This document shows positions 1,006-50,090 of a stretch of DNA of 64,000 nucleotides, piece by piece. The stretch is from Planctomycetota bacterium (GTDB taxonomy: Bacteria; Planctomycetota; Phycisphaerae; Phycisphaerales; Phycisphaeraceae). Position numbers and translations under genes: made by a program. The number at the start of each line of letters is the position of its first letter. Position 1 is the first letter of the stretch. The notes below the pieces were generated by a model. That model searched no databases, was not told the origin of the DNA, and saw only the letters and a list, made by a program, of their open reading frames with translations. The stretch is from NCBI GenBank assembly GCA_024279275.1, contig JAJRRS010000038.1, forward strand, positions 1-64,000, read 5' to 3'.

Positions 1006-3372
1006 ATGACAACCTTTCTAACGAATCCCATTGCATCGGTGGCGTCTTTATTTGATCGTGGCTTCGACCCGGCGCGTGCGCGTCGGCTGCCGGAGGCCAG
1101 TGAGGTGGGCGAGTCGAATGTCCGTGGGCTTTACCTGGCGGGAGAGATCGCGGGGACGCCGTTGATCAAGCTGGGGCTGAATCGTGGGCGGGCGGTGATC
1201 GATCATCTGGTCGGGGTGGACCTGGCACGCGAGTTGGGGGAGCGGGGTGTATCGATGAATGATGATGGGGAACTGGAGACGCGACAGGCGGGGTTCGACC
1301 CGACGGAGCCGCGCGACGGGCAGTGGTACGACGTGTTGATTGTGGGCGCGGGGAGTGCGGGGCTGGGTGCGGCGGATCGTTGTCAGCAGTTGGGGCTGTC
1401 TTATGTTGTGATCGAGGGGCAGCGGCCTGCGCAGCTTGTGCGGAACATGACCAAGGGCAAGCCGTTATTGATGGAGCCGCCCAACGAGGACAACCAGACC
1501 CGGCTGTACTGCGAAGAGTGCAGCAAGGAAGAGCTGCTCGAACAATGGGATCGGCAGATCGTCGAGCTTGGGCTGGACAAACACATCCGCACGTTCGAGC
1601 AGGTCACGGACATCCAACGCCAGGGCGACAAGGACGGGTTCAAGGTCACAACCGACAAGGGCGAGCACCGGGCGAGGCGCGTGGTGCTGGCGATCGGTAA
1701 GGCTGGGAACCCTCGGAAGCTGCGCGTGCCCGGCGAGACGGAGCATGCGGCGCGGATCAGTCAGAATGTGGCCGACCCGGATGAGTGGGAGGGGAAGAGC
1801 CTGGTGGTGTTCGGCGCGGGGGACGTGGCCTGTGAGGCGGCGATCGCATTAGCGGACCGGGGCAACCACATCACGATGGCGGCGCCTGATAAGGAGTTCA
1901 CGTTTCCCAAGAAGCGGAACATCGACGCGGTGAATCAGCGGGCGGCCCAGGGGAAGATCGATCTGTATCTGGGGCACGGCGCTGCGGAGATCGGGGCGGA
2001 TTCGGTGACGCTGAAAGACCTGGCCAGCGGGGAGACGAAAACAGTCCCGGCTGAACACATCTTCCGCTGCATCGGGGCGGAGATGCCGATGGGTTTTTTC
2101 AAGAAGGTTGGCATTCAGCTTGAGGGGGCGTGGAACGTCAAGCGGTGGACGATCCTGGGAGTGGCGGCGTTGATTTCGTATTTTATCTACGGGGCGAAGG
2201 CCAGCCCCCCGCTTTGGCCATTTAATATCAAGTCGAGCCTGTTCGCTGCGACGGACGGTGTGCCGCGCGGCTTTGGTGCGTGGTGGCAGACGCTACATGT
2301 CGGCGAGGGTAACTGGGCGTTCAAGTTCAACGGCTCGTTCTGGTACAGCCTGTCGTACTGCCTGGTCATGACGTGGTTCGGATTCAAGGCTTACCACCGC
2401 TGGGGGGTTCGGCACAACGACGATTACCAGAAGAAACGATTTCTGTCACTGATCTCCGTGCAGTGGCTGTTAGCGTTCTTGATTCCCAACGTCCTGATGT
2501 GGTGGGTGCACGGGATGTTCGGTGACAATCAGTGGCTTGGCAACCGCGACAACTGGTGGCACGCCTCGGGGTTTGAGTACGCGTTCCCACTATTCTTCTG
2601 GCAGTTTTTCTGGGATGTCGGTTGGCTGTATCTGATCTATGGTCTGGCGGCGACGTTTATCGTGATCCCGCTGCTGACGATCCGGCACGGCAAACGCTAT
2701 TGCACCTGGTTTTGCGGCTGCGGCGGGCTGGCGGAAACGTTGGGCGACCCATGGCGGCACCTGGCGCCCAAGGGCAAGGTCGCTGGTCGTTGGGAGTGGA
2801 TGAACTTCGCGGTCCTTATCTGGGCGGTCGCGGCGATTGTGCTGGTGGCAGGAAAGATCGGGCTGGGCAAGTGGGTGACGGGGACGCCGTTTGTCTCGCC
2901 ATCCGTCGGCGAACACGGCGCGATGACGACATACCTATTTAAGGGCTACGCCCAGTTCGCGGACCTGTGGCTGGTGGGGATCATCCCGGTGGCGCTATAC
3001 CCGATCTACGGAGGGAAAATCTGGTGCCGATACTGGTGCCCCTTGGCGAAGTGGATGCAACTGACCAGCAAGTGGTTCGGGACGCTGCAGATCTCAAGCG
3101 ACGACAAGTGCATCACCTGCGGGGAGTGTTCGCGGTACTGCGAGGTCGGGATTGATGTGATGGCGTTTGCCAAGAACCAACAATCGTTCGGAAACGACAA
3201 CACAAGCTGCATCCATTGCGGCATCTGCGTCACGGTCTGCCCGATGGATGTGCTGAGCTTCGACAACGACCGGGTCGGGACGGTGACGCGGAAGGTTCGT
3301 GAGATGCGGGGGATTGGCGTGACGATCGAGGGACGGGAGTTGGCCGATGCGGCGGCGATGCGATCCGGTTGA
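1006..3372 (+). CDS. NAD(P)/FAD-dependent oxidoreductase fused to membrane 4Fe-4S polyferredoxin (NapH/NosR/CcoG-like)
   Basis: 788 aa; GLYLAGEIAGTPL, then VLIVGAGSAGLGAADRC and VVFGAGDVACEAAIAL Rossmann motifs, several TM segments, CTWFCGCGG and CRYWCPL, then CITCGECSRYCEVG and CIHCGICVTVCPMD. Confidence 0.88.
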   Translation: MTTFLTNPIASVASLFDRGFDPARARRLPEASEVGESNVRGLYLAGEIAGTPLIKLGLNRGRAVIDHLVGVDLARELGERGVSMNDDGELETRQAGFDPTEPRDGQWYDVLIVGAGSAGLGAADRCQQLGLSYVVIEGQRPAQLVRNMTKGKPLLMEPPNEDNQTRLYCEECSKEELLEQWDRQIVELGLDKHIRTFEQVTDIQRQGDKDGFKVTTDKGEHRARRVVLAIGKAGNPRKLRVPGETEHAARISQNVADPDEWEGKSLVVFGAGDVACEAAIALADRGNHITMAAPDKEFTFPKKRNIDAVNQRAAQGKIDLYLGHGAAEIGADSVTLKDLASGETKTVPAEHIFRCIGAEMPMGFFKKVGIQLEGAWNVKRWTILGVAALISYFIYGAKASPPLWPFNIKSSLFAATDGVPRGFGAWWQTLHVGEGNWAFKFNGSFWYSLSYCLVMTWFGFKAYHRWGVRHNDDYQKKRFLSLISVQWLLAFLIPNVLMWWVHGMFGDNQWLGNRDNWWHASGFEYAFPLFFWQFFWDVGWLYLIYGLAATFIVIPLLTIRHGKRYCTWFCGCGGLAETLGDPWRHLAPKGKVAGRWEWMNFAVLIWAVAAIVLVAGKIGLGKWVTGTPFVSPSVGEHGAMTTYLFKGYAQFADLWLVGIIPVALYPIYGGKIWCRYWCPLAKWMQLTSKWFGTLQISSDDKCITCGECSRYCEVGIDVMAFAKNQQSFGNDNTSCIHCGICVTVCPMDVLSFDNDRVGTVTRKVREMRGIGVTIEGRELADAAAMRSG

Positions 3373-3375
3373 CGG

Positions 3376-3921
3376 TCACGCCCGGAAGATCGCGTAAGAA
3401 CCCAACCCGTTGAATATCTGTAACACGAACATCACGATACAGACGGCCAAGAGCCACCGACGCGAACGCCTGCCCAGCAGGGCACAGGCAGACATTAAGA
3501 TAATTGTGGCGACCCCAAAGATCATAACGATCTCCGAATCGCTAAAGGCGCTACGGTCACCCCTAAGGTGCAAGCACCACATGGTCGGCACCACCGATGG
3601 CAAGGTCGGAAATATCTTTACCCAGAACATCCGGTACCCGCCCCACCCATAATCGATCCAGAAGATCCATGTGTTGGGCAAATAGACTGCCAGCAACACC
3701 GACGACAGTGTAACCCACCACGACGGCCGGCAGCGCCACCACGATCCACTGCGCCAGCTCGACTTGGGTGGGCGCAGTTTTGCCGGGTCGAATGTTTCAC
3801 CACACTCCGGGCAGCGGGGTTCGGTCGTGCCGGTGAGGTTGTACTCGCACTTGGGACAGCACAGGCCGATGAATGGCAGGTCGGCCGCCGCAGCTATTTT
3901 CTTGTTCTCAGGCATCACCAT
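3376..3921 (-). CDS. Small membrane protein with N-terminal zinc ribbon
   Basis: CPKCEYNLTGTTEPRCPECGETF followed by hydrophobic segments. Confidence 0.65.
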   Translation of the reverse strand: MVMPENKKIAAAADLPFIGLCCPKCEYNLTGTTEPRCPECGETFDPAKLRPPKSSWRSGSWWRCRPSWWVTLSSVLLAVYLPNTWIFWIDYGWGGYRMFWVKIFPTLPSVVPTMWCLHLRGDRSAFSDSEIVMIFGVATIILMSACALLGRRSRRWLLAVCIVMFVLQIFNGLGSYAIFRA

Positions 3922-4064: not shown

Positions 4065-6476
4065 ATGAATCCGATATCCCGTTACATGCGTTGGCTGCAC
4101 ACACGTTGGCCGGCGGGCCACGTTGAAAAGCTCCCATTAATCAACCCCGACGGGTCCACCGCTGTGCCGGGGTTGTATGTTGTCGGAGACATCACGGGGG
4201 TCCCGCTCTTAAAGTTTTCATCCGACACCGGCGCGCGTGCGGTGCAGACGATTGTCGCGGATGCGGGTTTTGCGAAACGCGACAAAGATGTCAGCCGTGA
4301 CGGGAAGAAAGTGCTTGACCTGGTTGTCGTCGGCGCGGGTGTGTCGGGTGTGGCGGCGGCGATCGAGGCGCGGAAGAACGATCTTAGCTTTGAGTTGCTC
4401 GAAGCGTCCGAGCCGTTCTCAACCGTGGTGAACTTCCCCAAGGGCAAACCGATATTCACTTATCCAACCGACATGACCCCGGCTGGGGAATTGCAGTTCG
4501 GCGAATCGACGTCGATCAAGGAGGGGTTGGTCGATGCTCTCCACGGGTATCTGAAAAAATACGACATCCAGCCGCGTCAAATCCGGGCCGAGCGCATCAC
4601 ACGCAAGGGCGGGCTTCTCGAAGTCGTTATCCCCGACGGCGAAAACCTGCTGGCCCATCGCGTGGTCGTCGGGATCGGGCGGTCGGGCAACTTCCGCAAA
4701 CTCGGCGTGCCCGGCGAAGAACTAGGCAAAGTCTCCAACCGCCTGCACGACCCCAAAGATTACTGCGGCAAGAAAATCCTGATCGTCGGCGGGGGTGACA
4801 CGGCGATGGAAACCGCGATCGCGTTGGGCGCTTGCGGCAGCCATGTCACCGTCAGCTACCGCAAGCCGGAGTTTAGCCGACCCAAGCCCGAGAACGTCGA
4901 GAAGCTGAGGATGTTGGCGGACGACCCGATGGCGGAGGATGCCGTGGTCGAGGAACCCAGCAGCGAGCGGATCACCACCGCCGCCGGTGCGTTTATGAAC
5001 GACCACCGCAAGCCCGGGTCGGTGACGTTGTTGATGGCGAGCAAGGTCAAGGAAATCCACGAAGACCAGGTCGTCGTCACCGACGCGGACGGCGTGGACC
5101 AGAGAATAGAAAACGACGCGGTGTTCACGATGATCGGTCGAGAGGCGCCGCTGGATTTCTTTCGACGTAGCGGCGTCCCGATCCGGGGTGAGTGGCGGGT
5201 CAGTAGCTACGTCAGCTTCGCGCTGTTCTTCGTATTTTGTGTGTTCCTCTACCATTGGAAGAGTAGTGCCGGGTTCGACCTCAAGGGGATATTCAAAGAT
5301 TATCACTGGTTCCCCTTCAATATCGCAGGCCCGGATAACCCGGCGAACCTGATCGGGACGCTGGCGTTATCCATGCAGAAGCCCAGCTTCTGGTACTCGC
5401 TGGCCTACTGCCTGTGTATCGTGATCTTCGGGATCAAGCGGATCAAGCGCCGGCGAACGCCCTACGTTAAGTTGCAGACGCTGACATTGATGTCGATCCA
5501 GTGTGTGCCGTTGTTTTTGCTGCCGTACATCCTGCTTCCGTGGATGGGGCACAACGGATTGTTTAATGATGGTGTCAGCAAATCTTTTGCCGATGCGCTG
5601 TTTCCGCTGACACAGTGGGACAACCACGAGCGAGAGTATTGGCGCAGCGTCGGGTTTATCCTGGCTTGGCCGTTGATGTTCTGGAACGTGTTTACTTACC
5701 AACCCATCTGGGCGTGGCTGGTCATCGGGTCGCTTCAGACTTTCGTGCTGATCCCGCTGATCGTCTGGCGTTGGGGCAAGGGTGCGTACTGCGGGTGGAT
5801 ATGTTCCTGCGGCGCGTTGGCTGAGACAATGGGTGATGCCCACCGCCACAAGATGCCGCACGGCCCAAAGTGGAACCGCTTGAACATGCTCGGGCAGGTT
5901 TTCCTGTGGATCATCACCGCGCTATTAGTATTGCGCGTTGTGTCCTGGATCACCCCCGGTAGTACTCCGGGGGGCTGGGCGACCGCGGCGTACAACCTGA
6001 TCTTCGAGGGCAAGGATGCCAACGGCTCTCCGATCGGTGGGTTGATGCGTTATTTTAACTACGTCTGGTCGGTCGATCTGCTCTGGGCGGGTGTATTCGG
6101 GGTGGCGTTTTACTTCTGGTTCTCCGGCCGGGTCTGGTGCCGATTCGCTTGTCCGTTGGCGGCGCTGATGCACATCTATGCACGGTTCAGCCAGTTCCGC
6201 ATCCTAAGTGACAAGAAAAAATGTATCTCCTGCAACGTCTGCACCAGCGTGTGCCATCAGGGGATCGACGTCATGAACTTCGCCAACAAGGGCCTGCCGA
6301 TGGAAGACCCCCAGTGCGTGCGATGCTCGGCCTGCGTCCAGTCCTGCCCGACTGGGGTGCTGAGCTTTGGGCGTATCAACCGGAATACAGGTGAAGTCCT
6401 GGGAATTGATACACTTGGGGCCTCACCGGTGCGGATGGCGGAGCTGACGGTGAATGGGAAGACCGTCGGAACTTAA
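4065..6476 (+). CDS. NAD(P)/FAD-dependent oxidoreductase-polyferredoxin fusion, tandem paralogue of 1006..3372
   Basis: 803 aa; GLYVVGDITGVPLLKF, VVVGAGVSGVAAAIEA, LIVGGGDTAMETAIAL, ICSCGALAETMGDAHRH, CRFACPLAAL, CISCNVCTSVCHQG, CVRCSACVQSCPTG. Confidence 0.88.
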   Translation: MNPISRYMRWLHTRWPAGHVEKLPLINPDGSTAVPGLYVVGDITGVPLLKFSSDTGARAVQTIVADAGFAKRDKDVSRDGKKVLDLVVVGAGVSGVAAAIEARKNDLSFELLEASEPFSTVVNFPKGKPIFTYPTDMTPAGELQFGESTSIKEGLVDALHGYLKKYDIQPRQIRAERITRKGGLLEVVIPDGENLLAHRVVVGIGRSGNFRKLGVPGEELGKVSNRLHDPKDYCGKKILIVGGGDTAMETAIALGACGSHVTVSYRKPEFSRPKPENVEKLRMLADDPMAEDAVVEEPSSERITTAAGAFMNDHRKPGSVTLLMASKVKEIHEDQVVVTDADGVDQRIENDAVFTMIGREAPLDFFRRSGVPIRGEWRVSSYVSFALFFVFCVFLYHWKSSAGFDLKGIFKDYHWFPFNIAGPDNPANLIGTLALSMQKPSFWYSLAYCLCIVIFGIKRIKRRRTPYVKLQTLTLMSIQCVPLFLLPYILLPWMGHNGLFNDGVSKSFADALFPLTQWDNHEREYWRSVGFILAWPLMFWNVFTYQPIWAWLVIGSLQTFVLIPLIVWRWGKGAYCGWICSCGALAETMGDAHRHKMPHGPKWNRLNMLGQVFLWIITALLVLRVVSWITPGSTPGGWATAAYNLIFEGKDANGSPIGGLMRYFNYVWSVDLLWAGVFGVAFYFWFSGRVWCRFACPLAALMHIYARFSQFRILSDKKKCISCNVCTSVCHQGIDVMNFANKGLPMEDPQCVRCSACVQSCPTGVLSFGRINRNTGEVLGIDTLGASPVRMAELTVNGKTVGT

Positions 6477-6494: not shown

Positions 6495-7310
6495 ATGAAT
6501 GGTGTGTTGAAGTTTATTTTTATTGTTGTTCTGGCGATCGGGTCGCCGGCCCTGGCGCAGGACGCGGCGTTCCACCAGAGGTTCGCCGACCAGATTGGTA
6601 GCGCCCACGGGGCCGACGCCTACCGGTCTCACACGGCGTTGCGTGCCGATGTCACCGTCACCTTCGGCGGCAAGGTCATACTCAGTGGCGTGATCATTTT
6701 CGATACCCCGGTCGGCCAGTCGCGGATCGAAACGGCGGACGGGGTGGTGATGGTGTTTGACGGGAAGGATGCCTACGTCAGCCCAGCCGATGCGCCGGTC
6801 CCGCCGGGGATGGCGAGGTTTCAGTTATTGACCTGGCCTTACTTCGTGGCTGCGCCCTTTAAGCTCGCCGACCCCGGGACACACATCGACGACGCGGGTG
6901 ATAAACCCCTGGACGCCGGGCGCGCCTTGCCCGCCGGCAAGCTCTCTTTCGCGCCCGGCACCGGCGACTCGCCCGAGGACTGGTACATCGTTTACCGTGA
7001 TCCCGACACCGATCGTCTGGCGGCGATGGCGTACATCGTGACCTACAGCAAGTCCGCGCACGATGCGGAGAAAGAGCCTCACATGGCTATCTACGAAGCG
7101 TTCGAGGATATCGATGGCGTCATCCTGCCGACACGCTTTAGCTTGTGGAACTGGGAATCAGGCACAGGCAAGGTCGGCGAGGTGCTCGGGCGGGTCGAGC
7201 TTAGCAACTACCAATTTATTGAACCCGATGAATCCACGTTCACCAAACCCGACCACGCACGCATAGACACCCCACCATCACCACCATCCTCACAACCACC
7301 AGCTAATTAA
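6495..7310 (+). CDS. Secreted DUF6503-like protein
   Basis: N-terminal signal peptide (MNGVLKFIFIVVLAIGSPALAQ); HTALRADVTVTFGGKVILSG..., DG.DAYV; 18 nt after the preceding gene. Confidence 0.6.
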   Translation: MNGVLKFIFIVVLAIGSPALAQDAAFHQRFADQIGSAHGADAYRSHTALRADVTVTFGGKVILSGVIIFDTPVGQSRIETADGVVMVFDGKDAYVSPADAPVPPGMARFQLLTWPYFVAAPFKLADPGTHIDDAGDKPLDAGRALPAGKLSFAPGTGDSPEDWYIVYRDPDTDRLAAMAYIVTYSKSAHDAEKEPHMAIYEAFEDIDGVILPTRFSLWNWESGTGKVGEVLGRVELSNYQFIEPDESTFTKPDHARIDTPPSPPSSQPPAN

Positions 7311-7319
7311 GGATAAGCC

Positions 7320-8630
7320 ATGACCAACACAGCCAACGCTTCATCAGACACGCTTTTTGCAGACGCTATCGGTCGACTCGATCAGGCTGGGAAGATCGCC
7401 GGGCTTGACCCCGAGGTGGTCGAGTTGTTGAAGCACCCCAAGGCGGTGATGCACTTCTCGATCCCCGTGCGGATGGACGACGGCTCGCTTAAAGTATTCG
7501 AGGGCTACCGCGTTCGGCATAACAATCACCGCGGCCCGACCAAGGGCGGGATCCGTTATCACCCAAACGTGTCGCTGGATGAGGTCAAGGCGCTGGCGTT
7601 CTGGATGACGTGCAAGTGTGCCGTGGTGGGCATCCCGTTCGGCGGAGCCAAGGGCGGGATCACCGTGGACCCCCACGGGTTGTCGCACATGGAGCTTGAA
7701 CGGCTGTCGCGCGGATTCATCCAGCAGGTCGCCGACTTCATCGGGCCTGATGTTGATATCCCTGCACCGGATGTTTATACCAACGCCCGGATCATGGGGT
7801 GGATGATGGATGAGTACTCCAAGATCAAACGCCAACACAGCCCGGCGGTTATCACCGGCAAGCCGATCCCCTTGGGCGGCAGCCTGGGGCGCGACGACGC
7901 CACCGGACGCGGGGCGTATTACTGCATCAAGGAGCTTGAGAAGAGACGAAATTGGAACCCCGCCGATATCACCGTCGCGGTGCAAGGCTTCGGCAACGGC
8001 GGGCAGAACGCGGTGAAACTGCTGCACGCCGATGGGTATAAGATCGTTGCTGTGAGTGACTCCAAAGGCGGGATCTATAAGCCCGAGGGGTTCGATGTGC
8101 CCAGCCTGATCCAGATCAAGAACGAGTCGCGCAAGCTCAAGGCGGTCTACTGCGACGGCTCGGTCTGCGAAGCCATCGAAGCCGACTCGATCAGCAACGA
8201 ACAACTGCTTGAGTTGGAGGTGGATATACTGATCCCAGCTGCGTTGGAGAATCAGATCACCTCGGCGAACGTGAATAACATCAAGGCCAAGGTCATCGTC
8301 GAGGTCGCCAACGGCCCGACGACCCCGGAGGCGGACGCGGCGCTAGTAAAAAATGACACACTGGTCGTCCCGGATATCCTCGCTAATGCCGGCGGGGTCA
8401 CGGTCAGCTACTTCGAGTGGGTGCAGAACCGCCAGGGGTTTTACTGGTCCGTGCAAGAGGTTCGAGATCGGCTCGAAAAGATCATGCGGGCCGAGTTCAA
8501 CGCGGTTTACAACCTGATGGAGAAACACGAGATCGACATGCGGACGGCAGCGTATGCCCACGCGCTAAATCGGATCGGTGAGGCGGTCGAGGCCGGGGGC
8601 ACGCAGCGGTACTTCGGCGAGGCGAACTGA
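7320..8630 (+). CDS. gdhA: Glu/Leu/Phe/Val dehydrogenase (glutamate dehydrogenase)
   Basis: 436 aa; FEGYRVRHNNHRGPTKGGIRYHP, GGAKGGITVDP, PAPDVYTNARIMGWMMDEYSK, VAVQGFGNGGQNAVKLL. Confidence 0.95.
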   Translation: MTNTANASSDTLFADAIGRLDQAGKIAGLDPEVVELLKHPKAVMHFSIPVRMDDGSLKVFEGYRVRHNNHRGPTKGGIRYHPNVSLDEVKALAFWMTCKCAVVGIPFGGAKGGITVDPHGLSHMELERLSRGFIQQVADFIGPDVDIPAPDVYTNARIMGWMMDEYSKIKRQHSPAVITGKPIPLGGSLGRDDATGRGAYYCIKELEKRRNWNPADITVAVQGFGNGGQNAVKLLHADGYKIVAVSDSKGGIYKPEGFDVPSLIQIKNESRKLKAVYCDGSVCEAIEADSISNEQLLELEVDILIPAALENQITSANVNNIKAKVIVEVANGPTTPEADAALVKNDTLVVPDILANAGGVTVSYFEWVQNRQGFYWSVQEVRDRLEKIMRAEFNAVYNLMEKHEIDMRTAAYAHALNRIGEAVEAGGTQRYFGEAN

Positions 8631-8774
8631 GGCGTCCGGCCCCCCGGATACTTCCCCCGTGTATCCCTGGCCTCGCCGGTTGCCTATCGCCCCGCCCCCC
8701 ACTGCCCCGTTGCTCCGGTGGTGGTATCATCACATAGTCAGGCAAGCACCATCGGCACGGAGGCCCGGGACCGC

Positions 8775-10214
8775 ATGCTCAAAGAAACCTATCCCTACTA
8801 CCTGGCGAACCAGCCGAAGCAACCCAACATCGATCTGCCGGTGAAAGATAAATACACCGGCGAGGTCGCAACGCGCGCCGCACTCGCCGACGCCGACGCG
8901 ATTGAACAAGCGATCGCCGCTGCGGTGGACGCAGCCGAACCCATGCGCCGTCTCAAGGCGTACGAACGGCAGGCGGTGCTGGAGCATTGCGTGCGACGGT
9001 TCCGCGAGCGGGCGGAGGAGTTAGCGCAGGGCCTGTGCATCGAGGCGGGCAAGCCGATCAAGGATTCACGCGGCGAGGTGGCCCGGCTGGTCGACACGTT
9101 CAAGATCGCCGCAGAAGAAGCGACACGCATCAGTGGCGAAGTGATCCCGATGGATATCTCGGCCCGGGCGTCGGGGTACTCGGGGATGACCAAACGAGTC
9201 CCGGTCGGTGTCTGCTCGTTCATCACGCCGTTTAATTTCCCGTTGAACCTGGTGGCGCACAAGGTCGCACCTGCGATCGCGGCGGGTTGTCCGTTTGTAC
9301 TCAAGCCTGCGCCTGATACGCCGATCGGGGCGTTGATCATTGGCGAGGTTCTGGCTGAGACTGATTTGCCCAAAGGCGCATTTTCTATTTTACCGACCAC
9401 CAATGAGCTGGCTGGGCCGCTGATCGAAGACGATCGGATCAAGTTGCTTTCATTCACCGGGTCGGCGGTGGGCTGGGAGTTGCGTGCCAGAGCGGGTAAG
9501 AAAAAGGTGGTGCTCGAACTGGGGGGCAACGCGGCGTGTATCGTCGATGAAGATATCACCGGCCAACACTTGGACGATGCGGTGAAGCGCATGGTGATCG
9601 GCGCGTTTTACCAGTCCGGGCAGAGCTGCGTCGGGGTGCAGCGGGTATTGGTACACGAGTCTGTGTATGACGAGTTCAAGCGTAAGTTTGTGGAGGCTTC
9701 AAAGGCGCTGAGGGCCGGGGATCCCAAGGATGAAGCGACGTTTATTGGGCCGATGATCTCGGAGAAGTCGGCGAAGCGTCTTGAGGGCTGGATCAATAAG
9801 GCGGTAGATGGCGACGCGAGGCTGCTCTGTGGCGGTGGGCGCGAAGGTTCGATGCTGCAAGCCACGGTGCTTGAAGATGTGCCGAGCGATCGTGCGATCT
9901 GGTGTCGGGAGGCGTTCGGCCCGGTCGCGGTGTTAAAGAAGTTCAGTGACTTCGATGAAGCACTTAGAATAGTTAACGACAGCCCGTTCGGTCTGCAGGC
10001 CGGGGTCTTCACACGCGATCTCTACAAGGCGCACAGAGCCTGGGATGAGCTAGAGGTCGGCGGGGTCATCATCGGAGACATCCCGAGCTGGCGCGTCGAC
10101 CACATGCCCTACGGCGGGGTCAAGGCCAGCGGGCTTGGGCGTGAAGGCATCCGCTATGCGATTCAGGAGATGACCGAGGTCCGTTTGATGGTGGTGCGTA
10201 CGCCGGAGGCCTGA
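8775..10214 (+). CDS. Aldehyde dehydrogenase family protein
   Basis: FITPFNFPLNLVAHKVAPAIAAGCPFVLKPAPDTP, LSFTGSAVGWELRARAGKKKVVLELGGNAA, YQSGQSCVGVQRVLV; ATG at 8775 preferred over 8718 (GGAGG upstream). Confidence 0.92.
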   Translation: MLKETYPYYLANQPKQPNIDLPVKDKYTGEVATRAALADADAIEQAIAAAVDAAEPMRRLKAYERQAVLEHCVRRFRERAEELAQGLCIEAGKPIKDSRGEVARLVDTFKIAAEEATRISGEVIPMDISARASGYSGMTKRVPVGVCSFITPFNFPLNLVAHKVAPAIAAGCPFVLKPAPDTPIGALIIGEVLAETDLPKGAFSILPTTNELAGPLIEDDRIKLLSFTGSAVGWELRARAGKKKVVLELGGNAACIVDEDITGQHLDDAVKRMVIGAFYQSGQSCVGVQRVLVHESVYDEFKRKFVEASKALRAGDPKDEATFIGPMISEKSAKRLEGWINKAVDGDARLLCGGGREGSMLQATVLEDVPSDRAIWCREAFGPVAVLKKFSDFDEALRIVNDSPFGLQAGVFTRDLYKAHRAWDELEVGGVIIGDIPSWRVDHMPYGGVKASGLGREGIRYAIQEMTEVRLMVVRTPEA

Positions 10215-10268
10215 TCCGGCAGGTGTTGTATCGTATGGGTGGGGGCGACATCAGCCGATAGAAAACCT

Positions 10269-12968
10269 ATGGCCCAACCCGATCTTCATAATAACCCGGA
10301 GCGTGTCAGGCTTGCCGAGGACGCCGCGCGGCAGAAGAACTGGAAACGGTTCGGGCCTTACCTTGCGGAGCGGCAATGGGGGACGGTGCGTGAGGATTAT
10401 TCGGCGGGCGGGGATGCGTGGGGCTATTTGCCACACGACCACGCGCGTAGCCGAGCGTATCGCTGGGGCGAGGATGGGTTGCTTGGGATCAGTGATCGTG
10501 AGTGTCGATTGTGTTTCGCGTTAGCGTTATGGAACGGCAAAGACCCGATCCTCAAGGAACGGTTGTTCGGACTCACCGGGCCACAGGGCAATCACGGCGA
10601 GGATGTCAAGGAGCTTTACTATTACCTGGATTCGTCGCCGACACACAGCTACATGAAGGCGTTGTACAAGTACCCGCAACGCGAATACCCCTATGCGCAG
10701 CTTGTTGAAGAGAATGCAAAACGCAGCAAGGCCCAGGGGGAGTTCGAGCTTGCAGACACGGGGGTATTTGATGGGGGGCGGTACTTTGATGTATTTGCGG
10801 AGTACGCCAAGGGTTCCCCGAACGATGTGTTGATCCGGGTGACGATCCACAATCGTGGCCCAAAGGATGCCGAGTTGCACCTGCTGGGGACGTTGTGGTT
10901 CCGCAATACCTGGTCATGGGGCTGCGGGGACGAGGGGTGTTGGCATCGACCGACGTTGAAGTTGGATGCGGATGGGCGGGGTATCGAGGCGGGCCACAGC
11001 ACGCTTGGCGAGTTTCGGTTTCATGCCGACACCGCATCAGACGGGACAACGGGCGACTGGCTGTTCACAGAAAACGATACGAATCACAAGCGTTTGTACA
11101 ACGGCAAGAACGAGAGCGACTACGTTAAAGATGCGTTCGACCGGTACGTCGTCCATGGCGAAAAAGGCGCGGTCAACCCTGAAAAAACAGGAACGAAGGC
11201 GGCGGCGTATTACAAGCTAAACGTGCCAGCGGGCGGATCGGTGAGTGTGAATCTTCGCTTGTCATCGAATGATGAGGCACCTGCTGAGCCGTTCGGGGAG
11301 GCGTTTGAAAAAGTGCTTAGTAAGCGGATCGCCGAGACCGACACGTTTTATGAATCGTGTACGCCGACGGGTCTGAGCGACGAACATCGGCGGATCAGCC
11401 GACAGGCGGACGCGGGGCTTTTGTGGAGCAAGCAGTTTTACTACTACGTCGTGCGTGACTGGCTGCGTGGCGACTTGGCGCAGCCCGCGCCCCCGAAAGA
11501 GAGGCACACCGGTCGGAACGCGGACTGGTCGCACTTATATAACCGTGACATCATCTCGATGCCGGACAAGTGGGAGTATCCGTGGTACGCGGCGTGGGAT
11601 CTGGCGTTTCACACGATCAGCTTTGCCCGATTGGACCCGGGCTTTGCCAAGAAGCAGTTGCTGTTGATGCTGCGTGAGTGGTACATGCACCCCAACGGGC
11701 AGATGCCGGCGTACGAATTTGCGCTGTCGGATGTGAACCCGCCGGTGCATGCATGGGCGTGTTGGCGTGTGTACAAGATGACAGGTAAGCGGGGTGAACG
11801 TGATCGCGATTTCTTGACGCGGGCGTTCCAGAAGCTGCTGCTGAACTTTACATGGTGGGTCAATCGCAAAGACGCCAACGGCAAGCACCTGTTCACCGGC
11901 GGGTTCCTTGGGCTTGATAATATCGGTGTGTTCGATCGCTCCAAGCCGCTGCCGGTCGGGGGGACGCTTGAGCAGGCGGACGGGACGGCGTGGATGGCGT
12001 TTTACTGCGGGACGATGCTGTCGATGGCGTTGGAACTAGCGCTAGAACAACCGGAGTATGAAGACCTCGCGAGCAAATTCTTTGAGCACTTCATCCACAT
12101 CGCCGACGCGATGAACAACCTCGGCGGCGAGGGGTTGTGGGATGAAGAGGATGGGTTTTATTACGACCAACTCAGGCTCGCGGGGCAGAGCACGCCGTTA
12201 AAGGTGCGCTCGATGGTCGGGCTGATCCCGCTGTTTGCGGTGGAAGTCCTAAAAGGCGAGACGATCGATCGGCTGCCGGGGTTTAAGAAGCGGATGCAGT
12301 GGTTTATCAAGAACCGGCCTGACCTGGCGCGGACGATCAGTTGCATGAGCCACGCGGACGGCAGCGGCGACGACCGGTACCTGCTGGCAATCCCGACGCG
12401 CGGTCGACTCGAACGCATCCTCGAATACCTGCTTGACGAGAGTGAGTTCTTGTCACCTTATGGTGTCCGGTCATTGTCACGGGCGCACCTGGATAAGCCT
12501 TACCGATTCCTGGCGGACGGGGCGGGGTATTCGGTGGGGTATGTGCCGGGCGAATCCGATAGTTATCTTTTTGGTGGCAACAGCAACTGGCGCGGGCCGG
12601 TCTGGTTCCCGGTGAACTACCTGCTGATCGAATCGTTGGAACGATACGATCGGTTTTATGGCGGGACGATCCAGGTGGAATGCCCGAAGGGTTCGGGCGT
12701 AAAAGTCAGCCTGGGGGAGGCGGCGGACGAGATACGCCGCAGGCTGGTTCGGCTGTTTGAGCTTGACAAAAGCGGGCATCGGCCCTGCCACGGTGGTGAT
12801 ACGCGCTACGCAAACGACCCGGGATTCCGCGATCTGCTGCTGTTCCATGAGTATTTCCACGGCGAAACAGGCCGGGGGCTTGGCGCCAGCCATCAGACCG
12901 GGTGGACCGCACTGGTCAGTCAGTGCATCAACGATCAGGGTAGAATGGGGGGAGGCAAGAGCCGTTAG
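10269..12968 (+). CDS. GH63-like / MGH1-like glycoside hydrolase (glucosidase family)
   Basis: about 900 aa; WGYLPHDHARSRAYRWGEDGLLGISD, YPWYAAWDLAFHTISFARLDPGFAKKQLLLMLREWYMHPNGQMPAYEF, NSNWRGPVWFPVNYLLIESL; inner ATG at 10269 preferred. Confidence 0.85.
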   Translation: MAQPDLHNNPERVRLAEDAARQKNWKRFGPYLAERQWGTVREDYSAGGDAWGYLPHDHARSRAYRWGEDGLLGISDRECRLCFALALWNGKDPILKERLFGLTGPQGNHGEDVKELYYYLDSSPTHSYMKALYKYPQREYPYAQLVEENAKRSKAQGEFELADTGVFDGGRYFDVFAEYAKGSPNDVLIRVTIHNRGPKDAELHLLGTLWFRNTWSWGCGDEGCWHRPTLKLDADGRGIEAGHSTLGEFRFHADTASDGTTGDWLFTENDTNHKRLYNGKNESDYVKDAFDRYVVHGEKGAVNPEKTGTKAAAYYKLNVPAGGSVSVNLRLSSNDEAPAEPFGEAFEKVLSKRIAETDTFYESCTPTGLSDEHRRISRQADAGLLWSKQFYYYVVRDWLRGDLAQPAPPKERHTGRNADWSHLYNRDIISMPDKWEYPWYAAWDLAFHTISFARLDPGFAKKQLLLMLREWYMHPNGQMPAYEFALSDVNPPVHAWACWRVYKMTGKRGERDRDFLTRAFQKLLLNFTWWVNRKDANGKHLFTGGFLGLDNIGVFDRSKPLPVGGTLEQADGTAWMAFYCGTMLSMALELALEQPEYEDLASKFFEHFIHIADAMNNLGGEGLWDEEDGFYYDQLRLAGQSTPLKVRSMVGLIPLFAVEVLKGETIDRLPGFKKRMQWFIKNRPDLARTISCMSHADGSGDDRYLLAIPTRGRLERILEYLLDESEFLSPYGVRSLSRAHLDKPYRFLADGAGYSVGYVPGESDSYLFGGNSNWRGPVWFPVNYLLIESLERYDRFYGGTIQVECPKGSGVKVSLGEAADEIRRRLVRLFELDKSGHRPCHGGDTRYANDPGFRDLLLFHEYFHGETGRGLGASHQTGWTALVSQCINDQGRMGGGKSR

Positions 12969-39971: not shown

Positions 39972-41054
39972 TTACTCTTGTAGCTGCGTCTCGCCTGTCT
40001 CATCATTCCCGCCCCCGGAGGTGTCCCCGGCATCTGCACCGGCTTCATCACCTGGTGCGGCGGGCGCCTTATCGAGGATCGGCCCGTCGTAGTTGGCGCT
40101 GATCGACTTAAGCAACTCGATCACGCCGGTGATTTCCTGTTCCTTGATCTGGCCCTGGAAGGTCGGCATGACGTTGTCGTAACCCGCCACCAAATCCTTG
40201 CCCGGATTCAGGATCGAATCGCGGACGTAATTTTCATCAACCTTACGGCTCGAACCATCGGCAAACGTCTGGGTCTTGCCAAATACGTCCTTCCAACTCG
40301 GCCCCGTGCCCGCAATACCGTCCAGCGAGTGACACTGCTTGCAGCCATAGACCTTGTATGCCCGCTTACCTAACTCGACCGGCGGCATGGTCATGATGAT
40401 CTCATCGAGCTTCCTGATATAGGCGTCGTAATCTTCCTGCGACTGGACGACCACCTTCGTCACCATCGTCGAGTGCTGCTGACCGCAGTACTCAGCACAG
40501 AAGAGGTTGTATTCGCCGACCTCGGTCGCCTGGAACCATGTCTTGTTGTACCGCCCGGGGACCACGTCCTTCTTCACGCGGAAATCCGGGACGTAAAAAC
40601 TATGAATCACGTCGCTGGAGGTCAGCACCAGGCTGATCGGGGTGTTCACCGGAACGTGCAGGGTGCCGTCGTTCTGCCCCCCTGCGTAGGTAAATGACCA
40701 GTTCCACTTGCTCGCCGCGACGATGACCTGGTTGCGGGTCGCGCCATTGGGAGCCTGGTTCATATCCATGAATCCACGGAAGCCCCAGACGAAAATAATC
40801 ATCACCAAAATCAACGGCGGCAGCGTCCACCCCAATTCGATCGCGGTGGAGTGCGTCGGGCCGACCGGCTTGTCGTGGGGGCTTTTACGCCGATACTTGA
40901 TGACAAAATAAATCATCACCCCAGCAATCAGGATCAACCAGATCACGCTCATCCACAGGACAAACTGATAAAGCCCGTCGTGCGACGCGGCAACGGTCGA
41001 CCGCCCGGGGGGGAGGAAAAAAGTCTTCTCAGCTTGTGCAAGGATCGCCAGCAT
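39972..41054 (-). CDS. ctaC: Cytochrome c oxidase subunit II with C-terminal cytochrome c domain (caa3 type)
   Basis: [23 protein letters not shown], Cu[33 protein letters not shown]. Confidence 0.95.
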
Positions 41055-41076
41055 CCGCGTTCCCGTTCCTTAGGCG

Positions 41077-42036
41077 TTAGCCCTGCGCCGCGCCGTGCGC
41101 AGCTGGGTCTGTTTCGTTCGCAAGTCGTCGGCGGTGTTCCCGCCACAAAAATCCCCCGACCACAATCAACATCACAAAAACCGTCAACGCGCCCCCGAGT
41201 CGCATGATCCCCATCGCCGTCGCCGAGTATGTCCCCAGGCTCGGGTCGTAGTGCAGACAGGTCAACAAAAACTGATCTACCAGCGAACCAACCTTACCCT
41301 CCGACGCCTCGACCAGCGACAGCCTGAATGTCTGTTCATCGTCCGCGTATTTCACCCCTGACAGATACCGGGTGATCGTCCCGTCGGGGGACAAAATCAT
41401 AATCACCGCGGGGTGGGCGAACTGCTGCTGCTCACGAACCCACTTGAACCCGAACCCGACCTCGTCAGCCAGTTGTTCGATCATGTGGGCCTCGCCGATC
41501 AGGAAGTGCCAGTTGTCCTCAGCCCCCACCTTGCCGGAACCGGACTTCAGATCCTTGGCGATCGTTTCCTTCTTCATCTTCGCCAGCGAAGGCTGCTCAG
41601 CAGGGTCGATGCTGACGGTGATGATCTGGTAATCGTCCCCCAGGTCCAGGTTGGTTTCTCCAACCACCTCGCGGAGGCCTTGGAACACCAGCCCACAAAG
41701 CATCGGGCACTGGTAGTAGCCAAGCTGCAACACCACCGGCCGTTCGCCGTCGAAGTAATCACTGAGTTTGACGCGCTGGCTATCGGAGTCGGTAAAGACC
41801 AAGTCTCCTGAAACCTGTGCCCCCAGGTGGTAGTCCATGTCCACCCGCTTGAGCTGGCTTGATTCAGCGTCCGCCGGCGTCGTGGATTCCTGCGGGGCGT
41901 ACGCCTGACCATAGACAACCTGCGCCCCCGGATTTACCCCAGGCATCACCCCCGATATCAGGGCCATCAGCAAGACTCCCGCGATCACGGGCAGCAGTCG
42001 GGTTGTCGGGTTCACAGTCAATCGCATTTCGGTCAC
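41077..42036 (-). CDS. SCO1/SenC family protein
   Basis: RPVVLQLGYYQCPMLCGLVFQGLREV (CxxxC), ITVSIDPAEQPSLAKMKKE; C-terminal TM. Confidence 0.9.
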   Translation of the reverse strand: MTEMRLTVNPTTRLLPVIAGVLLMALISGVMPGVNPGAQVVYGQAYAPQESTTPADAESSQLKRVDMDYHLGAQVSGDLVFTDSDSQRVKLSDYFDGERPVVLQLGYYQCPMLCGLVFQGLREVVGETNLDLGDDYQIITVSIDPAEQPSLAKMKKETIAKDLKSGSGKVGAEDNWHFLIGEAHMIEQLADEVGFGFKWVREQQQFAHPAVIMILSPDGTITRYLSGVKYADDEQTFRLSLVEASEGKVGSLVDQFLLTCLHYDPSLGTYSATAMGIMRLGGALTVFVMLIVVGGFLWREHRRRLANETDPAAHGAAQG

Positions 42037-42066
42037 TTACTTAACAATTACGCGTTCGTAAATCTC

Positions 42067-42369
42067 TTATTGCCCAGCATCCTGCTGCTTGATGGCCTGG
42101 TCCATCCCCCATTGAATCACGGTCACAGCAACCTCTTTGCCATCCACCTGCCCGGTCTTGACCACCCGGTTCAGCTTCGCCGCCTGCGCCTCGTTCAACG
42201 ACACCAACTGAGCATACGGGACATCGACGTACTTCCGCTGGTTCTCCTGCGCAAACTCGTAGCGGAACCACGCCTGCGTCGCGACGATCAAAGCGACCAA
42301 CAGGATCGCGCTGACGATGCCCATCAGGGCGAGCAGCTTGACATTGATATCGTGTGAGCCAGACGGCAT
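42067..42369 (-). CDS. Small single-TM protein in the ACIII cluster
   Basis: 100 aa; LLALMGIVSAILLVALIVATQAWFRYEF; between actF-like and SCO genes. Confidence 0.65.
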   Translation of the reverse strand: MPSGSHDINVKLLALMGIVSAILLVALIVATQAWFRYEFAQENQRKYVDVPYAQLVSLNEAQAAKLNRVVKTGQVDGKEVAVTVIQWGMDQAIKQQDAGQ

Positions 42370-42381
42370 CGTTTCGATCCT

Positions 42382-43833
42382 TTAATACGGGTTGACGTGG
42401 CCCAGCGAAGTGCCCAGCCTCGGGTCGCCCGCCGCGATCAAACCCTGACGGGTCGCACGCAGCACGGTCGTACCCACAGCCACGCCGCCAAGTCCCACCA
42501 AACACAAAATTTCTACCGTCGGCAGTGGCACGCTCGGCGATGAATAGTTCGGCATCACCACCCACCACTGATCGATCCAGTGCATCACCAGCAGCCACAC
42601 CGCCCAAAACGCCAGGCACTTTCGGCTACGCTTGATCCACCGCGACAACAGCCCCAGGAACGGGATAAACAAGTGACCGAATAGTAGCACCAGCGACACA
42701 CAGGTCCACCCCGATATAAACGGGTTGCCTTCCTGGGTCGTGACCCCACGCTTCTCAAACCAGTACGTCTCCTCCGCGAGGTTGGCGTACCAGATCAGCA
42801 TGAACTGGCTGAATGCGATGTAACCCCAGAAGAACACAGTCATAAACAACAGCTTGCCCAAGTCGTGGTAGTGCTCGACCGAAACGCTCGGCAAATACCC
42901 AAACCGCTGCAACGCCAGCAACGCCAAAATCATCGTCGCCACCACACTCATCATCGAACCGATGAAGTAGTACACGCCCCACATCGTCGAAAACCACACC
43001 GGGTCCAGCGACATCAGCAGGTCGAACCCGGCAAACGTGATCGTCAACGCAAACAACAGCGTCCCCGGGGCAGAGAGCTTCTCCAGCCTGCGGGTCAGCT
43101 TCACGCTGTTGCCGGACTCCTGTGCGACCGAGTTTTTCAGGTAGTACCAACCCAGCCCCGACCAAACCAGCAGGTAAAAAACCCACCGCCCAGTAAAGAA
43201 CCCGGGATTAAGGTAAGCGCTCTTAATCGGGATCAGGATGTGCTCAAGCGATGCGTGAGCTTCTCTTCGCTTCGCGAAAAAAGCATCCTTGGCTTCGCTA
43301 ACCTGCCCCGCATCAGCCGTAGTGCCGTGTCCTGGGATATGGCCCTCGCCTGCCTGGGCTTCGTCGTGTGACGCAGGCTCAGCCGAAACGGTGACGATCT
43401 GCGCGTCATACGGCTGAACCAATGCATGACCCGCACCCGTGTCGCCATCCCCCTGCGCCCAAGGATAAAGCATCCCGTTGCCCATGAAGACGTACAGCAG
43501 GATCGGCACGAACAGCACAGCCATGACCGGCATGTTCGCAGCTATCACCTCAGCGATCCGTCGAACCGCCACCACCCAGCCGGCCCGGAACAGGTGCGTG
43601 ATCAACACCATGAACAACCCGCCGAGCGTGATGCTCAGGAAAAAACTGTAGTTGACGACGTAGGCATAGCCGAACCGCTCCCAGCCGCCGACACCCTTCA
43701 ATTGCGACACGCCCACCGCCGCCAGCAGTGCGATGATGCCGACAACGATCGCGGTCAGGCCGAACGACCGCGCCCCCGCGCCCAGTCGGCGCTTGTCGTC
43801 GTCTTTCAGTACGGGCTCGTGATGGTGAGCCAA
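42382..43833 (-). CDS. actF: Alternative complex III membrane subunit ActF-like
   Basis: 483 aa multi-TM; YSFFLSITLGGLFMVLITHLFRAGWVVAVRRIAE, FGYIAFSQFMLIWYANLAEET-type quinol:cyt c oxidoreductase motif; cluster position. Confidence 0.85.
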   Translation of the reverse strand: MAHHHEPVLKDDDKRRLGAGARSFGLTAIVVGIIALLAAVGVSQLKGVGGWERFGYAYVVNYSFFLSITLGGLFMVLITHLFRAGWVVAVRRIAEVIAANMPVMAVLFVPILLYVFMGNGMLYPWAQGDGDTGAGHALVQPYDAQIVTVSAEPASHDEAQAGEGHIPGHGTTADAGQVSEAKDAFFAKRREAHASLEHILIPIKSAYLNPGFFTGRWVFYLLVWSGLGWYYLKNSVAQESGNSVKLTRRLEKLSAPGTLLFALTITFAGFDLLMSLDPVWFSTMWGVYYFIGSMMSVVATMILALLALQRFGYLPSVSVEHYHDLGKLLFMTVFFWGYIAFSQFMLIWYANLAEETYWFEKRGVTTQEGNPFISGWTCVSLVLLFGHLFIPFLGLLSRWIKRSRKCLAFWAVWLLVMHWIDQWWVVMPNYSSPSVPLPTVEILCLVGLGGVAVGTTVLRATRQGLIAAGDPRLGTSLGHVNPY

Positions 43834-43917
43834 AGTAATTCGCTCCTGCTTGGTTCAGTCTTCTAAAAAATCTCTAACCGACCCGTCCAACGAGTCAGCC
43901 CAATATCTCTGTCCCGG

Positions 43918-44661
43918 CTATTCCACGCCGCCAGCCAACTCCGCCGGGGCATCCGGGGTGTCCGGGGCGTCCTGACTCATCTGCAACGCCCGCAGGTACG
44001 CCACAATCGCCCAGCGGTCTTGCACCGGGACCTGTGCGCCGTAGCCCGCCATGTTGCGGATGCCGTTAGTAATCGTATTAAACAAGTGCCCCTCAGGCCT
44101 GAATCTGCGCTCATCATCGGTCAGGTTGCTGGGCTGCACCCAACCTGCCTGAATATCCAACGACCGCTGATAGATCGCGCCGTCGCCCTGCCCGCCCAGA
44201 CCGTGACACGGGGCGCAGTAGATATTAAACCGCTGCTGGCCACGCAACATCAACGCCTGGTCAACCTTGATCCGTCCGGGGAAGCCCGTGTAATAAACCG
44301 TGTCCATCCCGCCGGTCGTCGCGTTATTCTCAAGACGGTAGCCGCGGAAGTAGTGGTCATCCGTGGCGAGCAGGTCGGCATTGGGCGCATCCACCTTTTT
44401 GCCCCAGGCGATCGTCCCCGGCACCGGCGGACGCATCGCCCGGCCATCCGCAAATATCGGCGAGTCCGACTGAGCCTTGAACTTGGTCTGCTTATCCATA
44501 TCCAATATGTAATGCGGACGCGTCTTTGGCGAAGTCGATACCCGCGCCCGCATCGCCAACGCCAAAGGCACCAACGGCAGGCACATCAAAATCAACAGCC
44601 CACCGATCAACCAGAACGGCGGAGCAGGCAACTTCAGTTCTTCAACGATCCACTTGAGCAT
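43918..44661 (-). CDS. actE: Alternative complex III monoheme cytochrome c subunit ActE-like
   Basis: LRGQQRFNIYCAPCHGLGGQGDGAIYQRSL...RWAIVAYLRALQMSQ. Confidence 0.88.
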   Translation of the reverse strand: MLKWIVEELKLPAPPFWLIGGLLILMCLPLVPLALAMRARVSTSPKTRPHYILDMDKQTKFKAQSDSPIFADGRAMRPPVPGTIAWGKKVDAPNADLLATDDHYFRGYRLENNATTGGMDTVYYTGFPGRIKVDQALMLRGQQRFNIYCAPCHGLGGQGDGAIYQRSLDIQAGWVQPSNLTDDERRFRPEGHLFNTITNGIRNMAGYGAQVPVQDRWAIVAYLRALQMSQDAPDTPDAPAELAGGVE

Positions 44662-44709
44662 CGGTCTCTCACGTTGCACGCAGGCCTGTCAGCCCACACG
44701 CAGCCATAG

Positions 44710-45333
44710 TCAGTCTTCTATCAACTCAACAGACACAGCGCCCAATCCCTTAAGGAACTCGGCCGTCTTGTCCTTGTCAAACCGGCGGTCGCGCGCCTCC
44801 ACTTCAATAAAGAAGCGGTCCGCAGTCGATCGCCGAAAGTTCACACTCTTAAGCAACGGGTTCGCCAACTTGGGCAGGCGGTTCATAATCAGCATCCCAA
44901 AGACCGCACCAAACGCGGACAGAAGGATCGTCGTCTCAAAAATCACCGGGATAAACGCCGGCAGGCTGTTGAACGGCTTACCGGAGATCAAAAACTTGTA
45001 CCCACGGATCGGTGCCACAGCCCCAGGCAGCCCAGGCACGTCAAAGTCGGTCGCCATCGTCCCCAATACCAGCATCAACCCCACCATCGTCCCGGTCAGC
45101 CCGCAAGCCAACACGATCCAGGGCAAAATAGTCGGGCGGATACCGATCGCCGCATCGATCCCGTGGATCGGGAACGGGCTATGCACATCCCAGCGCTTGA
45201 ACCCCTCGTCGCGGGTCTTCTTCGCGGCGCGCATGATGTCGTTGACCGTCTCAAACTCAGCGATTATGCCGTGCAACTTCGCGGGAGCATCGGAGGCAGT
45301 CGAGATGTCAGGCGAGTCTAGGACCTGTGCCAT
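44710..45333 (-). CDS. actD: Alternative complex III subunit ActD-like (DUF3341)
   Basis: LHGIIAEFETVNDIMRAAKKTRDEGFKRWDVHSPFPIHGIDAAIG; two TMs. Confidence 0.92.
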   Translation of the reverse strand: MAQVLDSPDISTASDAPAKLHGIIAEFETVNDIMRAAKKTRDEGFKRWDVHSPFPIHGIDAAIGIRPTILPWIVLACGLTGTMVGLMLVLGTMATDFDVPGLPGAVAPIRGYKFLISGKPFNSLPAFIPVIFETTILLSAFGAVFGMLIMNRLPKLANPLLKSVNFRRSTADRFFIEVEARDRRFDKDKTAEFLKGLGAVSVELIED

Positions 45334-46823
45334 CAGTGGCCCTCCGTCTCAGTAATCGGCCGGTCAGGGCGGTAATCCGCCTGGTGTTCGTCGGGGTTGT
45401 GAGGCTCGCCCGGCTCGTGAACGATGTCATGCGCCTGTGGCATCACCGTCTTGATCTCCGCCATCGCGATCACCGGCAAAAACTTGCAGAACAACAAAAA
45501 GAACGTGAAGAACAAACCAAACGAACCAACCAGCATCCCGATATCCACCCACGTCGGCGTGAACAACGCCCAACTGGAAGGCAAAAAGTCTCGGTGCAGG
45601 CTGGTGATAACAATCACGAAACGCTCGAACCACATACCCACGTTCACGCACATCGCCGCGAACATGATCGTGAAGACATTACGCCGACACCACTTGAACC
45701 AAAGAATCTGCGGGCCGATGATGTTGCAGAAAATCATCGTGTAATACGCCCACGCATAAGGCCCAAGCGCCCTATTTAAGAACGCCGCCTGTTCGTAGTG
45801 CTGCCCAGAATACCAGGCGATGAAAAACTCGATCGAGTAAGCATACGCAACAATCATCCCGGTCCCAAGCATGACCTTGCAGCAGTTCTCAATATGCCGA
45901 TCAGTAATGATGTCTTTGAGATTGAGCATCGCCCGTGCGGGGACAGCCAGCGTGATGACCATCGCGAAACCGCCGTAGATCGCACCGGCGACGAAGTAAG
46001 GCGGGAAGATCGTCGTGTGCCAGCCGGGAAGCTGGGCGACCGCGAAGTCGAACGACACCACCGAGTGAACCGACAACACCAGCGGGGTCGCCAACGCCGC
46101 CAGCAGCAGGTACGCCTTCTCATATCGATGCCAGTGACGCGAAGACCCGGTCCACCCCAGGCTAAATAGCCCATAAGCAAACTGCCCGTACTTGTTCTTG
46201 CAACGGTCGCGGAACGTGGCAAGGTCAGGGATCATCCCGACATACCAGAACAACAGCGACACGGTCGCGTAAGTACCCACAGCAAACACGTCCCACAGCA
46301 ATGGCGAACGGAACTGAGGCCACATCCCCATCTGATTAGGGATCGGTGCCAACCAAAACGCCAACCAAGGCCGACCAATATGGATACCCGGGAACAGCCC
46401 AGCGCACATGACCGCAAAAATTGTCATCGCCTCGGCAAACCGGTTGATCGCCGTCCGCCAGTTCTGCCTGAATAAAAACAGCACCGCCGAGATCAGCGTC
46501 CCCGCGTGACCGATACCCACCCAGAACACAAAATTCACAATCGGGAAGCCCCAACTCACCGGCTGGTTGTTGCCCCAGACACCCACACCCGTCGTCACCA
46601 AATACCCGATCAAGGCACCAAGGAACGACAACAACGACAACGCCGCACCAAAAGCAATCCACCAACTGATCGGCGGCCTGCCCGCAGCAATGCTCGTGAC
46701 CTTGTCGGTGATAGAGGTAAAGTCGTTATCCCCCAGCACCAACGGCGCTCGGCAGGTCGGATCGTCGCCCGTGTTATCAATCAACGGCTTGGGGACTTCG
46801 GGTTGGGTGGTGATGCTCGCCAT
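45333..46823 (-). CDS. actC: Alternative complex III NrfD-like membrane subunit ActC
   Basis: [70 protein letters not shown]. Confidence 0.95.
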
Positions 46824-46826
46824 AAC

Positions 46827-50077
<3,251 letters not shown>

Positions 50078-50090
<13 letters not shown>

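Follow-up and report, generated by a model that had tools for sequence, protein, structure and literature searches.

Within the window, by which we mean the whole 64,000-nucleotide stretch of DNA that was analysed, two neighbouring genes, here called q1 and q2, encode thioredoxin reductase (TrxR)/YpdA-fold reductases that are almost certainly circularly permuted. Sequence and structure prediction together indicate that a stretch of about 45 residues from the end of the FAD domain, comprising a strand, the GLYxxGD/E motif and a helix, has been moved to the N-terminus. We regard this rearrangement as genuine; it is conserved in many bacterial phyla and seems not to have been described before, and the cellular role of the proteins is inferred. 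Few flavoprotein folds have been studied as thoroughly as the TrxR/YpdA/FNR fold. In the open-licence literature, we found no description of a naturally permuted TrxR-type flavoprotein, which is no proof of absence, and nothing relevant to the related architectures. The parts were already known, and what is new is that the fold is permuted and that the permuted unit is coupled to membrane conduits.

Domain layout of q1 and q2

The q1 open reading frame (ORF) starts with ATG and encodes 788 amino acids. The features of both genes are as follows.

1006..3372, + strand: q1, very probably permuted TrxR/YpdA-fold flavoprotein with a NapH-like membrane polyferredoxin (ORF, Pfam/NCBIfam, alignment, AlphaFold2)
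1090..1224, + strand: displaced C-terminal FAD segment, residues 29-73, strand-GLYLAGE-helix (L187 match, segment model, pLDDT)
1225..1320, + strand: new linker between the former C- and N-termini, residues 74-105 (pLDDT 64-81; length variable in the family)
1321..2127, + strand: reductase core, residues 106-374, with FAD Rossmann motif GxGxxG at 114-119 and NAD(P) motif GxGxxA at 270-275 (Pyr_redox_3, Foldseek)
2137..3009, + strand: six predicted membrane helices, residues 378-398, 443-468, 473-505, 540-561, 598-619 and 639-668 (AlphaFold2 helices, hydropathy, charge bias)
2701..2721, + strand: C566-x3-C570-x-C572, invariant in 49 homologues, predicted cytoplasmic side (alignment)
3025..3042, + strand: C674-x3-C678-P679 (CX3CP), invariant in 49 homologues (alignment)
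3109..3240, + strand: C-terminal 2x[4Fe-4S] ferredoxin, CITCGECSRYC 702-712 and CIHCGICVTVC 735-745 (Fer4_7, E 7e-9; eight invariant Cys)
4065..6476, + strand: q2, tandem paralogue of 803 amino acids with the same permuted order as q1 (ORF, Pfam/NCBIfam, segment model)
4134..4262, + strand: displaced FAD segment of q2, residues 24-66, GLYVVGDITGVPLLK (segment model)
4311..5186, + strand: q2 reductase core, residues 83-374 (Pfam, core model)
6222..6347, + strand: q2 2x[4Fe-4S] ferredoxin (Pfam)

In the canonical layout, the FAD domain is made of residues 1-109 and 231-309, with the NAD(P) domain inserted between them (PMC5627308). YpdA/Bdr and low-Mr TrxR enzymes (TIGR04018 and TIGR01292; structures 7a76 and 3f8d) resemble q1 in having FAD and NAD(P) Rossmann domains, in motif spacing and in fold, and q1 has the GxGxxG and GxGxxA motifs in the family order. 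However, the layout of N-terminal plus C-terminal FAD stretches is not met, since the GD segment, which is C-terminal in those enzymes, is N-terminal in q1, and q1 is in addition fused to a membrane module. Pfam assigns residues 108 to about 376 to a pyridine-nucleotide-disulfide oxidoreductase and recognizes a 4Fe-4S dicluster at the C-terminus. The Pyr_redox_3 match (E 4.9e-31) aligns residues 111-372 with profile positions 1-281 of 305 and then ends, and after the NAD(P) domain the chain runs straight into six predicted membrane helices, followed by a 2x[4Fe-4S] ferredoxin. The final part of the domain is absent from its usual place and, as far as sequence can tell, the missing part is the GLYxxGD/E segment at residues 29-73. 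The stretch GLYLAGEIAGTPLIKLGLNRGRAVIDHL (residues 41-68) lies within this conserved unit, which gives a 67-bit match to the segment model. The first-pass annotation had placed an FAD segment at residues ~40-70, before the first GxGxxG, and had seen membrane helices and a ferredoxin where the C-terminal segment should be. Both observations held up: the unit at 29-73, upstream of GxGxxG at 114-119, is the only GLYxxGE segment of q1, and the six predicted helices and both cluster motifs occupy the C-terminal part. That annotation had overlooked the adjacent q2, the next gene on the same strand, which shares 31% identity with q1 and whose segment (51.6 bits) also lies N-terminal to the core. The residues that follow the second beta strand in the NAD(P) domain are SYRK in q2 and AAPDK in q1, which does not settle the preference for NADH or NADPH.

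Evidence for circular permutation

For an un-permuted comparison, we used acidobacterial proteins of ~800 amino acids (L187-L190 and L203), which contain the same reductase in canonical order and are the closest canonical-order relatives found of the q1 core plus segment. When the family HMM was run on these proteins, the core was found first and the segment directly after it, in other words, the N-terminal part of the HMM matched after its core. BLASTP of q1 against L187 aligned the core, residues 108-374, to residues 4-262 (35% identity, 3e-40), and the segment, residues 29-73, to residues 269-313 (47% identity, 8e-10). Two matches in swapped order are the signature of a circular permutation. 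The acidobacterial proteins are cNMP-binding NAD(P)/FAD reductases that, like q1, carry C-terminal 4Fe-4S domains, but they are un-permuted, have two cyclic-nucleotide-binding domains and mostly lack membrane helices. They contain several 4Fe-4S clusters and are possibly cyclic-nucleotide-gated redox enzymes.

The order was also examined by a rotation test, using an HMM of 21 canonical reductases and 200 shuffled segments as control. For q1, the core alone scored 165.3 bits, the native order 171.4 bits, and the rotated order 189.6 bits in one continuous match, compared with a mean of 166.5 and a maximum of 171.3 bits for the shuffles, so that rotation added 24 bits to the core alone and the best of the 200 shuffles only 6. 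For q2, the corresponding values were 155.9 (core), 164.9 (native), 172.9 (rotated) and 162.9 bits (best shuffle).

Subsequently, the position of the segment was counted across the family with separate models for core and segment and a threshold of 8 bits for duplicates. This census counts ORFs and not independent genomes, and a few ORFs represent the same gene twice. The segment was N-terminal in 171 ORFs and C-terminal in 28, and none was found in 6, some of which are visibly truncated and others below threshold. Above 8 bits, no second GLYxxG segment was present in q1 or in any relative tested, including a canonical C-terminal GD motif elsewhere in the soluble domain of q1, and no tandem intermediate carrying one segment at each end came to light when we looked for them. 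A frameshift or assembly artefact was ruled out, as the same order recurs in the 171 ORFs, nearly all from independent genomes, and duplication of the segment, with an undetected second copy at the C-terminus, was ruled out by the lack of a second segment in the relatives tested. In some members, the chain seems to start a mere 3-5 residues ahead of the segment, which indicates that the domain truly begins with the segment.

In a tree of the cores, a single origin of the permutation was not rejected (AU p = 0.19), yet the unconstrained tree needed 4 changes and placed long canonical branches badly, and the number of origins is therefore undecided.

Predicted structure

The AlphaFold2 model of whole q1 had a mean pLDDT of 85.5 and a pTM of 0.81. 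The segment was modelled at pLDDT 92-94, with a strand at 42-44 and a helix at 54-72, and the linker at 64-81. Within residues 1-105 of this model, there was no other strand of at least 3 residues that could pair with 42-44, so the partner strand must be located in the core. As a control, residues 1-104 were folded alone with a matching alignment. The strand at 42-44 was then lost, pLDDT fell to 57-78 over most of the segment, and pTM was 0.34. In these models, docking of the segment depends on the core. With the swapped BLASTP matches, the gain on rotation and the census, this bears out the permutation proposed in the first-pass annotation.

The top Foldseek match was YpdA/Bdr 7a76, a 326-residue chain aligned over 275 columns, with E 7e-18 and a TM of 0.65 when normalized by target length. 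YpdA and TrxR were the top matches, and the two-domain fold was met. Contact between the segment and FAD is inferred from homology; AlphaFold2 models no cofactors. With that reservation, neither of the two outcomes that the first-pass annotation had listed as refuting it was obtained. Among solved structures, only ferredoxin domains matched the membrane part of q1. A natural permutant that keeps its FAD site, as inferred here, is a test of the movement made by the inserted NAD(P) domain during catalysis.

Conservation and distribution

A scan of one genome per species yielded 53 loci that encode relatives, from Planctomycetota, Acidobacteriota, KSB1, Calditrichia, Desulfobacterales, Dadabacteria, Latescibacterota and others. 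In 49 aligned homologues, P29, G41, G46, G61 and the three glycines of GxGxxG were invariant, as were 13 cysteines of the membrane and ferredoxin parts. Invariance of these glycines and cysteines across many phyla indicates that the q1 arrangement is not due to chance. In the reductase core, no cysteine was conserved in more than 15 of the 49 homologues. The only annotated homologues found, in two plasmid records, are labelled merely 'NAD(P)-binding domain-containing protein', and the permuted unit marks unannotated membrane electron-transfer systems in Planctomycetota, Acidobacteriota, KSB1, Desulfobacterota, Bacteroidota and others.

Pseudoalteromonas sp. Bsw20308 encodes a protein of the window's type, hereafter class A, among glycosyltransferase genes on a 0.9-Mb replicon (WP_007378779.1; L139:8944-11298, + strand). 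Another permuted reductase (L196:2399-4192, + strand) has a cysteine-rich, double-zinc-ribbon-like insert between the FAD and NAD(P) parts of its core, and L197 may resemble it.

The membrane module

NapH and NosR type proteins have a four-helix module with two CX3CP motifs and two 4Fe-4S sites, for which quinol oxidation has been proposed (PMC5928378; PMC8238504). Like these NapH/MauN/NosR polyferredoxins (TIGR02163, PF12801), q1 combines membrane helices and two CX3C motifs with a cytoplasmic 2x[4Fe-4S] ferredoxin. It differs in that the first motif is CX3C-x-C with Gly in place of Pro, the second being a regular CX3CP (674-679), in having six predicted helices instead of four, of which four may be the shared part, and in the flavin reductase fused in front. 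The profile match is weak, and both q1 (47.2) and q2 (61.4) remain far below the curated TIGR02163 cut-off of 213. The two cysteine loops and the ferredoxin are located on the same side of the six helices as the reductase. This is the more positive side and thus probably the cytoplasm. In class A, the membrane part lacks a conserved pair of histidines that could hold haem, and the architecture includes no periplasmic redox domain.

Proposed electron path and alternatives

The reading that we favour, with some reserve, is that q1 and q2 are permuted low-Mr TrxR/YpdA-fold members on a NapH-like module that carry electrons from NAD(P)H via FAD and [4Fe-4S] clusters to a membrane acceptor, probably quinone; cofactors, direction and acceptor are all inferred. 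In this scheme, a short linker would join the segment to the old N-terminus, and the new C-terminus, in the loop that once preceded the segment, would lead into the six-helix module and the ferredoxin. NAD(P)H would reduce FAD, and, because the redox-active CxxC of TrxR is missing from the q1 core, FAD is proposed to hand over its electrons one at a time to the [4Fe-4S] clusters, which would share its cytoplasmic face. The membrane module with its invariant cysteines may then pass the electrons on to the acceptor. The path is based on the absence of conserved core cysteines, the 13 invariant cysteines of the membrane and ferredoxin parts, and the even number of helices, with every cysteine loop on the reductase side. 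Further context comes from classes B and C, described below, in which the permuted unit is linked to haem conduits. The genes surrounding class A members were mostly heterogeneous and without a dominant partner, with only a zinc-ribbon/YHS-like membrane protein (10 loci) and DUF3179 standing out, and hence the acceptor lacks genomic support.

A reverse or different use is not excluded, although we consider it considerably less likely. Quinol or another membrane carrier could donate electrons to NAD(P)+, or the protein could reduce a metal or another membrane-associated substrate, as proposed for CcoG-type polyferredoxins. NapH and NosR are indeed thought to oxidize quinol (PMC5928378; PMC8238504), but driving NAD(P)+ reduction with quinol is an uphill reaction unless a coupling device is present, and we see none. 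A metal-related role might be suggested by the YHS-like/zinc-ribbon membrane protein encoded upstream in ten loci, and by a copper-ATPase-like gene downstream in one, but the cysteines of the upstream protein are not conserved. This YHS-like protein occurs in several phyla (L020, L021, L022, L024, L029, L032, L039, L047, L050 and L051), its gene being located just upstream of the class A gene in nine loci and three genes upstream in L021. The protein ends in a zinc ribbon and has a secreted YHS-like CxxC domain, although not every copy retains the CxxC.

That the N-terminal segment completes the FAD site of the partner chain in a domain-swapped homodimer is improbable. TrxR and YpdA enzymes are homodimeric, and the linker of q1 is long and modelled with low confidence, both of which count in favour of this reading. 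However, the single-chain model docks the segment with high confidence, and in several members the linker, going by HMM boundaries, is only 2-8 residues long, the shortest (2 residues, L036) favouring packing within one chain. Even less credible is a disulfide reductase of the thioredoxin or bacillithiol type that happens to bear a membrane ferredoxin. The best Pfam, NCBIfam and fold matches are YpdA and TrxR, but q1 stays far below the NCBIfam cut-offs (108 of 339.9 for YpdA and 77 of 343.45 for TrxR), and the core lacks a conserved cysteine pair, which makes disulfide chemistry unlikely. Finally, we found no point in favour of the idea that there is no true permutation and that the GLYxxG stretch is an unrelated or vestigial fusion to a truncated FAD domain, which can be practically dismissed since a vestige would be expected to drift, whereas this segment has invariant glycines, 47% identity to its canonical counterpart, core-dependent docking and no second copy.

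Class B and class C relatives

The permuted unit, an Fe-S partner and membrane attachment are shared with q1 by two further groups, classes B and C (Emticicia WP_015031197.1; L112, L141, L191). In contrast to q1, their ferredoxin is N-terminal, and they are tied to a b-type-like membrane protein and multihaem cytochromes c, or carry haem motifs within the chain. Class B proteins run from a membrane anchor through 4Fe-4S sites and the segment to the core, followed by either a free cytoplasmic C-terminus or further membrane helices. ORFs with 7-40 CxxCH motifs neighboured all 20 class B clusters that had enough flanking DNA, compared with 0 of 43 for class A. These ORFs usually follow a four-helix protein, which in the Emticicia case has paired histidines and is dihaem b-like. 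The class B cluster is a possible conduit for electrons from NAD(P)H to the periplasm; if so, cytosolic NAD(P)H would be connected directly to multihaem cytochromes in the periplasm. A class B member in culture is Emticicia oligotrophica, and the genome from which the window derives also encodes a class B protein, cut by the end of contig C59 (L003/L141). Clusters of this class include L109, L112, L114, L116, L119, L122, L125, L128, L140, L148, L149 and L151. Class C combines FHA, eight CxxCH motifs, membrane helices, 4Fe-4S sites and the permuted reductase in one chain of ~1100 amino acids, and was found in Acidobacteriota (L191:2872-6108, - strand; L192, L193, L194 and L195).

The first-pass annotation had suggested that the permutation frees the C-terminus for a membrane module. 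This is an insufficient reason, since class B has the permuted unit with an often free C-terminus and an N-terminal Fe-S domain, so the permutation did not arise merely for that purpose, and freeing the C-terminus was probably not its cause. What the permuted units have in common is docking onto membrane electron conduits. A single TrxR-fold permutation may have given rise to a widespread superfamily, as yet without a name, of NAD(P)H-linked membrane electron conduits, comprising classes A, B and C, with new termini that let an Fe-S partner dock near the flavin, but this remains tentative and somewhat short of an even chance.

Gene surroundings in the window

The q1-q2 tandem is accompanied by the following genes.

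3376..3921, - strand: small protein between q1 and q2, by eye with zinc-ribbon-like CxxC pairs and membrane helices (no Pfam match)
6495..7310, + strand: probable secreted protein downstream of q2, with a signal-like N-terminal stretch (no Pfam or NCBIfam match)
7320..8630, + strand: glutamate dehydrogenase (GDH), possible NAD(P)H source (Pfam)
8718..10214, + strand: aldehyde dehydrogenase (ALDH), possible NAD(P)H source (Pfam)

A tandem pair of the q1/q2 type was found again in related loci L006, L011 and L048. The small protein is kept only in L006 and L048, and homologues of the probable secreted protein adjoin q2-type genes in L006, L048 and L156. GDH is also encoded near family members in L006, L048 and L020, and ALDH in L006, L014, L015, L143 and L156. 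These neighbours lend modest contextual support to the NAD(P)H role, an association that rests on a handful of loci.

Elsewhere in the window, positions 39975-50782 (- strand) contain alternative-complex-III-like genes, encoding a molybdopterin-like/4Fe-4S protein of 1087 amino acids and a five-CxxCH cytochrome, together with genes for cytochrome c oxidase subunit II and a cytochrome c. An MGH1/GH63-like glycoside hydrolase encoded at 10239-12968 is 59% identical to that of L046:1974-4679, which directly adjoins a class A gene in an acidobacterium.
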